From an uncultured Pseudomonadota bacterium (GTDB taxonomy: Bacteria; Pseudomonadota; Gammaproteobacteria; Steroidobacterales; Steroidobacteraceae): a stretch of DNA of 64,000 nt. The stretch spans positions 310,001 through 374,000 of the forward strand of contig CAIKMS010000008.1 of the NCBI GenBank assembly GCA_903828595.1, in the 5' to 3' direction. Positions within the stretch are counted from its first letter, which is position 1, and every line of letters begins with the position of its first letter. Shown here piece by piece: positions 38,023 through 39,640 of this stretch. The notes beneath the pieces are model-generated. The model had not been told where the DNA came from and ran no database searches. It saw only the letters and a list, made by a program, of their open reading frames with translations. The position numbers and the translations under genes were made by a program.

Positions 38023-38280
38023 ATGGTAACGATTCGACTGACTCGGCGTGGCGGCAAAAAAGCACCGTTTTATCACGTGGTAGCGACGGACAACCGTAAG
38101 CGCCAGGGTGGACGTACGCTCGAGCAATTAGGGCTGTTCAACCCGATTGCGCGTGGTAAGGAAATCCGCCTGCGTTTGGATGTGGCGCGCATTGATCATT
38201 GGCTGAGCACCGGTGCTAAGCCGTCGGAACGGGTAGCCGCGCTGGTCGCGGAATACCGCAAGCAGCAGGTTGCTGCCTGA
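38023..38280 (+). CDS. rpsP: Ribosomal protein bS16
   Basis: An 85-residue small-subunit protein. MVTIRLTRRGGKKAPFYHVVATDNRKRQGGR and LDVARIDHWLSTGAKPSERVAALV are diagnostic. A small GGTGC/GCACC hairpin lies in the leader. Its stop codon overlaps the proposed CTG start of rimM (CTGA). Confidence 0.97.
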   Translation: MVTIRLTRRGGKKAPFYHVVATDNRKRQGGRTLEQLGLFNPIARGKEIRLRLDVARIDHWLSTGAKPSERVAALVAEYRKQQVAA

Positions 38281-38864
38281 ACGAGCCTTCCTCCGGAGTC
38301 GCCGGCAACGGCGCTCCATCCGGGAATGACAGACAGGTACAGCTAGGCCGCATCGGTGCGCCTTGGGGCGTCCACGGTTGGCTGAAGGTCGAGTCGTTCA
38401 CGGAGCCTGCGACCGCCTTGTTGGATTACCCCGTTTGGCAATTAGCGGCGGTCGGTACCCTCAATGAGTCGGCCAGGGGCCAAGTGCCTACAGGGCCTTC
38501 GGTGCGGGTTTTGTCGGGTCGGGCTCAGGGTAACAAGCGGAGTCTGTTGGTGCGACTGGAGGGCGTGGATAGCCCGGAGGTTGCTCGGCAGTACACGACG
38601 CTAGAGATTTGGGTGCCTCGTTCGGCCATGCCGAGCGTGGCTCCGGGTGAGTATTACTGGGTAGATCTGATTGGTCTGCCGGTTGTCACGCTGGAGGGAC
38701 AGGCCTTAGGGCAGGTCAGCCATTTTGTCGATCTGCCGGCTAATCCGGTGGTGGTGGTCAAACAAGGAGCCAAGGAACACTGGATTCCGATGGCGCCTGA
38801 TCACGTGAAGCGAGTGGACGTGGCGGCCGGTTTGATTGAGGTCGACTGGGAGCCGTTGGTTTGA
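38277..38864 (+). CDS. rimM: RimM, 16S rRNA-processing/30S maturation factor (probable CTG start)
   Basis: RimM binds bS19 and matures the 30S head. The N-terminal RimM core, VQLGRIGAPWGVHGWLKVESF, is encoded well upstream of any ATG, GTG or TTG in this frame; the first standard start, TTG 38418, would delete it. The frame opens after a TAA at 38217. The best candidate is CTG at 38277, overlapping the rpsP TGA, with a weak AGG seven bases before, giving 195 residues. A base missing near 38326 in this sequence is the other explanation. The C-terminal PRC-barrel (YYWVDLIGLPVVTL) is normal. Confidence 0.85.
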   Translation: MNEPSSGVAGNGAPSGNDRQVQLGRIGAPWGVHGWLKVESFTEPATALLDYPVWQLAAVGTLNESARGQVPTGPSVRVLSGRAQGNKRSLLVRLEGVDSPEVARQYTTLEIWVPRSAMPSVAPGEYYWVDLIGLPVVTLEGQALGQVSHFVDLPANPVVVVKQGAKEHWIPMAPDHVKRVDVAAGLIEVDWEPLV

Positions 38865-39640
38865 TGGTAGGGACGCGTAGCGCGCCGCTGGCCATTGAAG
38901 TGGTCACGCTGTTTGATGAGCTTGTGCGCAGTAACCTGCGTTTCGGGGTGCTGGGTCGGGCGGTGGATCAGCGTTTATTGAGCGTGGGTACGACCGATCC
39001 CAGGGATTGGGCGACCGACGTGCACCGCACCGTGGACGACCGGCCTTATGGCGGTGGTCCGGGGATGGTGTTGGCTGTTGAGCCTTTGGCAACGGCGATT
39101 CGACAGGCGAAGGCTAAATTACCGGTCGACAGTCCGGTCATTTACCTCTCGGCGCAGGGCAAGCCGTTTGTGCAGGCCGATGCCGAGCGATTGGCGGCAT
39201 TGCCAGGGTTTGTGCTGCTGGCCGGTCGCTATGAGGGTGTGGACGAGCGAGTCCTTGAGGCTTGCGTGGATGAAGAGCTTTCCATCGGCGACTACGTGTT
39301 GTCGGGTGGTGAGCTGGCGGCTTGTGTGGTGATTGATGCCTGTGCGAGGTTGCTCCCCGGAGCGCTGTCGAACGAGCATTCCGCGCAAGAAGAGTCCTTC
39401 GCGCAGGGCTTGTTGGATTGGCCGCATTACACGCGGCCGGATGAGTGGCAGGGGCGGCGTGTGCCAGAGGTGCTTAAGAGCGGTAACCACGCTCAAATCG
39501 CACGCTTCAGGCGCAGCCAGGCGCTAGGTCGGACGGCTGAGAGGCGGCCGGACTTGTGGGCCCGAGTGGTGTTGAATGATTTAGACGCACGGCTCTTAGA
39601 GGAGTATCGTGCCGATCGCCAAAGCGGCGATAAGAAATAG
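38864..39640 (+). CDS. trmD: TrmD, tRNA (guanine-N1)-methyltransferase (m1G37)
   Basis: Knotted SPOUT methyltransferase making m1G37, needed for frame maintenance. VVTLFDELV begins the fold; RPYGGGPGMVL, LLAGRYEGVDERV and SIGDYVLSGGELAACVVIDA are the SAM-binding knot motifs. The catalytic Asp region (DWPHYTRPDEW) is present. The start is ATG 38864, overlapping the rimM stop; a TTG lies one codon upstream. 258 residues is normal. Confidence 0.96.
   Translation: MVGTRSAPLAIEVVTLFDELVRSNLRFGVLGRAVDQRLLSVGTTDPRDWATDVHRTVDDRPYGGGPGMVLAVEPLATAIRQAKAKLPVDSPVIYLSAQGKPFVQADAERLAALPGFVLLAGRYEGVDERVLEACVDEELSIGDYVLSGGELAACVVIDACARLLPGALSNEHSAQEESFAQGLLDWPHYTRPDEWQGRRVPEVLKSGNHAQIARFRRSQALGRTAERRPDLWARVVLNDLDARLLEEYRADRQSGDKK

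Follow-up and report, generated by a model that had tools for sequence, protein, structure and literature searches.

The window (the whole stretch of 64,000 nucleotides analyzed, from an uncultured member of the Steroidobacteraceae) contains the gene order rpsP-rimM-trmD and raises the question of where translation of rimM begins, as its reading frame offers no ordinary start codon ahead of the conserved part of the protein. The genome is a 3.09-Mb draft in 34 contigs. Gene rimM lies directly 3' of rpsP and directly 5' of trmD, with all three on the forward strand. The rpsP gene (38023 to 38280), encoding ribosomal protein S16 of 85 amino acids and recognized by tblastn to the rpsP genes of relatives (52% to 87% identity), ends with GCC (38275 to 38277) and TGA (38278 to 38280). 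The RimM profile TIGR02273 matches positions 38337 to 38855 with a score of 135.4 bits (curated cutoff, 66.2 bits), covering profile positions 2 to 164 of 166. The last stop upstream in the rimM frame is the TAA at 38217 to 38219, after which no stop interrupts the frame between 38220 and the TGA at 38862 to 38864; that TGA is overlapped, as TGATG, by the ATG of the next gene in the operon, trmD (38864 to 39640). According to a preliminary description of this DNA, the rimM frame has no ATG, GTG, or TTG between the TAA at 38217 and the TTG at 38418, and the sequence bears this out. Initiation at TTG 38418 would remove the conserved N terminus, because the profile match begins at 38337. The same description proposed a start at a CTG overlapping the rpsP stop, in the manner of ATGA overlaps elsewhere in the window. 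That CTG (38277 to 38279) is indeed in frame and forms CTGA, its last two bases being the first two of the rpsP TGA, and it is the sole in-frame NTG codon from TAA 38217 up to the conserved RimM N terminus. The only other near-cognate codons upstream of it are ATA 38253 and ACG 38229, and no NTG or ATN codon occurs in frame between CTG 38277 and the conserved motif. The ATGA overlaps are also real: a mechanical scan of the window, requiring open frames of no fewer than 75 codons on the upstream side and 100 codons on the downstream side, found seven of them and a single CTGA overlap, that at 38277. Read from the CTG, rimM (38277 to 38864) encodes 195 amino acids. Farther into the gene, at 38457 to 38477, the predicted RimM carries about seven extra residues (TLNESAR) that are missing in 12 aligned relatives. 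CUG is generally treated as a non-start codon in bacteria, and gene finders limited to ATG, GTG, and TTG are common; such programs would return rimM with a truncated N terminus, as CTG is not accepted.

The rimM gene is very probably translated from CUG 38277, overlapping the rpsP UGA, and the most likely mechanism is termination-reinitiation, which would yield RimM as a small fraction of S16. The argument for this start is comparative, namely, that the CUG appears to be the only start at hand, recurs in relatives, and is peculiar to rimM among the genes checked. Comparison of the rpsP-rimM junction in relatives, which the preliminary description had suggested, was carried out with 150 genomes of the family, mostly drafts of tens to hundreds of contigs. 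A rimM match was found in 143, and 142 junctions, including that of the window, were analyzed after exclusion of one fragment (G102). A junction was classed as start-less if no canonical start occurred in the interval that opens 45 nt ahead of the rpsP stop and closes 4 codons ahead of the Arg in the LGRIG motif. In total, 124 of the 142 junctions have a canonical start and 18 are start-less. All 18 have CTGA in the rimM frame, compared with 55 of 142 over the whole family set, so that start-less junctions are always in the frame that uses the overlap. When the search was instead limited to 20, 25, 30, or 40 codons before the Arg, 25, 20, 18, and 13 junctions, respectively, were start-less, of which 18, 18, 18, and 13 had CTGA; the 30-codon rule picks the same 18 junctions as the main rule. 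CTG at the overlap is common in that frame regardless (55 of 64), because rpsP ends with GCC TGA. By rough arithmetic that assumes start loss to be blind to the overlap, the probability that all eight CTG-only clades of the family have CTGA by chance is about 0.39^8, or 5 in 10,000. Three genomes initially taken as start-less (L013, L014, and L017) were dropped, as all proved to carry a GTG once starts were listed up to a fixed anchor, and L040 is not among the 18, its sole canonical start being a TTG 35 nt before the rpsP stop.

The start-less junctions include three genera in which the spacer from the rpsP stop to the conserved anchor is so short that another start could hardly fit. All seven genomes examined of one genus are CTG only, with a spacer of 32 nt in each and tails like (M)TDTTHWVEIGRIGAPWG. 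Five CTG-only genomes of another genus all have a spacer of 23 nt and tails like (M)SRYFVLGRI, and two of a third genus have a spacer of 26 nt, e.g., (M)NSDWVELGRLG. At the same overlap position, GTGA is present in L036, a congener of the CTG-only L035, and TTGA is present in three genomes of one genus (L079, L100, and L135); such variants are what would be expected of an initiation site. Coding-type substitutions were not found in the tail between the CTG and the conserved core in the seven-genome genus, where 42, 34, and 39 changes fall at codon positions 1, 2, and 3, respectively. This pattern counts against the CTG start.

Among the genes checked, the lack of a canonical start is peculiar to rimM. 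A canonical start was missing in 0 of 140 rpsP genes and 0 of the 45 trmD genes covered in the same genomes, which indicates that assembly errors do not yield start-less genes at the rate seen for rimM. The use of CTG by other genes was surveyed in 600 gene calls from five genomes; the window's contig contributed 374 kb, and four other CTG-only genomes contributed a single contig each. The gene caller was crude: it picked up three of the five rimM junctions and missed those of the window and G023. In-frame overlaps with an upstream TGA comprised 41 ATGA, 23 GTGA, 21 CTGA, and 8 TTGA. Three of the 21 CTGA overlaps are those of rimM, and the other 18 all have a canonical start within 42 nt, 17 of them having ATG, GTG, or TTG within 30 nt, often as CTGATG. 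The remaining candidate for a CTG-dependent gene (G023:C18 at 36639) was rejected, because an ATG lies 42 nt upstream of it and the supposed gene in front looks spurious. Thus, no gene other than rimM in these 600 calls depended on the CTG of a CTGA overlap, which suggests that CTG is not a general start in the stretches examined. Among the 251 genes called on the window's contig, rimM ranks second of 10 in which coding signal precedes the first canonical start. A separate case, elsewhere on this contig (G000:C8, 73092 to 73281, minus strand), is an ATPase-like frame with coding signal for 63 codons before its first canonical start, which is perhaps truncated or broken.

CTGA-only junctions also occur beyond the family. 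In a sample from other families of the order, 75 of 77 junctions tried were analyzed; the sample was nonrandom, being chosen for best-scoring matches, long open frames, and spread over families. Two genomes of one genus in another family (L205 and L206) are CTGA only, and L170 and L224, from other families, are start-less without being CTGA. The 30-codon rule adds L187 to L193 to the start-less set of this sample, their ATG being 31 codons off. These seven belong to a group of eight genomes (L187 to L194) of one genus in another family, in which an in-frame rimM ATG lies 38 nt inside rpsP, forming a long overlap; the seven have no nearer canonical start, and L194 has a further ATG at -29. Analysis of 79 of 80 loci from named genome contigs, which partly repeat the family sample, added L230 and L259 (Burkholderiales MAG) as new CTGA-only junctions, with a TTG inside rpsP in L230 and a GTG and an ATG three and two codons before the Arg in L259. 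The start-less CTGA junctions in 18 of the 142 family genomes and in these four from outside that sample lend support to the originally proposed CTG start. Since L227 is the genome of L124 and L228 is the genome of L103, the 24 CTGA-only loci represent 22 genomes. A further locus, L233 (CAMAQZ010000003.1), comes from a MAG titled Klebsiella pneumoniae, and its rimM is close to that of the family Steroidobacteraceae; the record title looks wrong. In-frame CTG codons away from the stop were noted in three rimM genes that have no good canonical start, L170 (-14), L040 (+10), and L224 (+77; all offsets counted from the rpsP stop), and in L170 and L040 the CTG is preceded by AAGG at 5 to 6 nt. A phylogenetic tree constructed with FastTree from RimM alone contained 282 sequences, of which 22 were CTGA only and 251 canonical. 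The CTGA-only sequences fell into 11 clades, with 11 changes between the CTGA-only and canonical states compared with 20 to 22 in 20 shuffles of the labels. The CTGA-only state thus appears to be clustered by descent and yet to occur in several separate places, on a tree that gives no direction of gain or loss.

Termination-reinitiation is indicated by the combination of a weak Shine-Dalgarno sequence, a CUG codon, and an exact overlap. In the window, the sequence CAGCAGG inside rpsP (38263 to 38269), with its AGG 7 nt before the CTG, is only weakly Shine-Dalgarno-like, and its computed duplex with the anti-Shine-Dalgarno sequence (-4.1 kcal/mol) is no better than that of background junctions. 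Strong pairing at the CTG was not found in the 18 start-less junctions, which have a median of -3.1 kcal/mol compared with -4.3 kcal/mol at rpsP starts. The median at the same place in junctions of the other frames, where no start is expected, is -4.15 kcal/mol, and pairing is weakest (-0.8 to -1.7 kcal/mol) in the genus in which the CTG is fixed. Ordinary initiation at the CTG is less likely because of this weak pairing. In the proposed mechanism, ribosomes or 30S subunits finishing S16 at GCC-UGA would remain on the mRNA, shift by two bases, and reinitiate with fMet-tRNA at the overlapping CUG, and the weakness of this start would hold RimM low relative to S16. The CTG may be what remained where the spacer had lost canonical starts or never had them. 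In Escherichia coli, RimM is made far below S16. A weak start would be tolerable, and perhaps useful, for a maturation factor, which the cell requires in much smaller amounts than a ribosomal protein.

The rival that survives best accepts the CTG as the start and regards it as a neutral leftover, used by ordinary 30S initiation, free of coupling to S16 termination and of selection for weak initiation. In 123 of 142 junctions, rpsP has GCC as its final sense codon, whatever the frame of rimM (19 of 21, 49 of 57, and 55 of 64), which indicates that rpsP dictates this C and that it is not kept for rimM. A special mRNA fold around the CTG was not found in the seven junctions for which folding energies were calculated (z scores of -1.64 to +0.26), a result that also favors a neutral leftover. 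However, the weak Shine-Dalgarno pairing, weakest where the CTG is fixed, fits poorly with independent initiation. In addition, a single synonymous change in the last rpsP codon would give a canonical start (GCC to GCA yields ATGA, and GCC to GCG yields GTGA), yet ATGA is present at the overlap in 0 of 142 family junctions. The absence of ATGA may reflect either a constraint on the end of the S16 protein or selection that keeps the rimM start weak. The penultimate rpsP codon is most often GCG (60 of 142, with GCC in 26), so that the preference for C before the stop is strong. A neutral leftover is considered an unlikely account overall, though one that keeps appreciable weight. A more specific form of the termination-reinitiation reading, in which coupling gated at initiation has been selected, is doubtful and is offered tentatively. 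The CUG would then be open only to ribosomes coming straight from S16 termination, to the extent that IF3 and the initiator tRNA admit such a codon, and RimM would be held at a fixed small ratio to S16 that would rise when the stringency of initiation falls.

It is quite improbable that rimM uses some other start codon, such as a TTG within rpsP, a TTG or GTG within the conserved motif, or a non-NTG codon. Five of the 18 start-less junctions have a TTG inside rpsP, 31 to 40 codons upstream of the conserved Arg, and four (L092, L111, L113, and L123) have, at a distance of two codons from the Arg and thus within the conserved motif, a TTG or GTG that was not counted as a start. Deep overlaps are possible in principle, as the ATG inside rpsP in the eight genomes of another family illustrates. 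However, in 13 of the 18, the window among them, a 40-codon search ending 4 codons before the Arg finds no canonical start. A census of near-cognate codons in the 18 found the overlapping CTG in all, ACG in 9 (as the codon next to the CTG in all 9), ATC in 3, ATA in 1, and ATT in 0, so each codon other than CTG is missing or present in only part of the set. The window itself offers nothing in this class beyond the ATA and ACG upstream of the CTG.

Synthesis of RimM as an S16-RimM fusion, which would arise by -1 frameshifting toward the end of rpsP and would need no rimM start codon, is very improbable. All 18 start-less junctions are in the -1 frame, whose open stretch ahead of the rpsP stop spans 9 to 283 codons. 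Nevertheless, this stretch is just 9, 19, and 22 codons in three cases, and a slippery heptamer of the form X XXY YYZ occurs in 0 of the 18 within the open stretch, up to the last 30 rpsP codons. Related junctions with GTGA or TTGA at this position behave as a start codon would, and relatives in which a canonical start follows the rpsP stop would presumably make RimM as a separate protein.

The preliminary description had named a missing base as the main alternative, with the true start at ATG 38326. The ATG (38326 to 38328) does lie one frame away; it is followed by a TAG after six codons and is absent from both congeners with which the window was compared. From the end of rpsP through the tail (38277 to 38345) into rimM, the window aligns in frame with both congeners, with a single difference of 9 bases. 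The tail gave a protein score of 29 against the congeners in the rimM frame and 6 to 12 in the other two frames, and shuffled sequences reach 29 in 3% to 4% of cases, so this frame-specific likeness may be taken as modest support. Both congeners have the CTG plus a GTG at +14, where the codon of the window is TCC. A sequencing or assembly error is the least probable explanation, conceivable for a draft in 34 contigs with an ATG one frame away, since loss of a base near 38326 would break the register with the congeners, which match the window in the rimM frame from the CTG with a length difference that is a multiple of three and resemble it upstream of 38326 in that frame alone, and since 17 further genomes of the family have the same start-less junction, each time in the one frame.

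A CUG start with its proposed coupling to rpsP termination can be compared with several known systems. The infC gene is autoregulated. Like infC, rimM is a translation-related gene with a start disfavored by initiation discrimination; infC has a strong Shine-Dalgarno sequence and an ATN codon, whereas rimM has a weak Shine-Dalgarno sequence, a CTG codon, and an overlap with a stop codon. In the infC gene of the window genome (L323, G000:C23 near 94605), none of the first seven codons past the upstream stop is ATG, GTG, or TTG; translation probably begins at an ATC located eight bases beyond GGAGG, the alternative being a GTG six codons farther on. Such a noncanonical infC start would fit start codon discrimination that is at work in this organism. 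In E. coli, rimM has an ATG start after a spacer. The window resembles the E. coli trmD operon in having rpsP, rimM, and trmD in the same order. In its statement on the rpsP-rimM-trmD-rplS (trmD) operon, a review reports no information on regulation (PMC10931766), and an N-terminomics study lists E. coli rimM among the genes with three N-terminal proteoforms (PMC13245402). No earlier report of a CTG start for rimM was found among the matches listed in the open-access literature.

Termination-reinitiation is established at gene pairs overlapping by 4 nt (Huber et al. 2019, PMC6728339; PMC10666635). According to the passages of these papers on such pairs, the last 15 nt of the upstream gene are enough for coupling, and the contribution of the Shine-Dalgarno sequence depends on the gene (PMC6728339, PMC10666635). 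In E. coli and Haloferax, termination-reinitiation is described as falling steeply with distance and as associated with short overlaps (PMC10666635). The rpsP-rimM pair is like these in its -4 NTGA geometry and in consisting of codirectional operon neighbors. Where a canonical start (ATGA, GTGA, or TTGA) would be expected in such a pair, the overlapping codon of rimM is CTG in the window and in all 18 start-less junctions of the family, and its coupling is proposed here; the term CTG does not occur in the main texts of PMC6728339 and PMC10666635. CUG starts are rare, with 2 of 61,358 reconstructed AUG starts having switched to CUG in the figures given by PMC5622118, and in E. coli, CUG complexes are described as less stable than AUG, GUG, and UUG complexes (PMC11497404). 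Unlike the rare CUG starts of PMC5622118, the rimM CUG recurs at one junction in 22 genomes and 11 clades and is fixed in the seven genomes of one genus. Comparison by itself points to a CUG start that is recurrent and specific to one gene, in an operon on whose regulation the review reports no information (PMC10931766). The junction may offer a natural setting in which to ask whether ribosomes that are terminating tolerate poorer start codons than free 30S subunits do and whether the proportion of a ribosomal protein to its assembly factor can be fixed by a start codon. If true, gated coupling would make rimM an instance of recurrent, gene-specific use of a bacterial CUG start to set a rate; the literature searched yielded no earlier case. 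A recurrent CUG start at a stop-start overlap would be unusual and would still fall within the four-base overlapping gene pairs, rather than represent a new kind of system.
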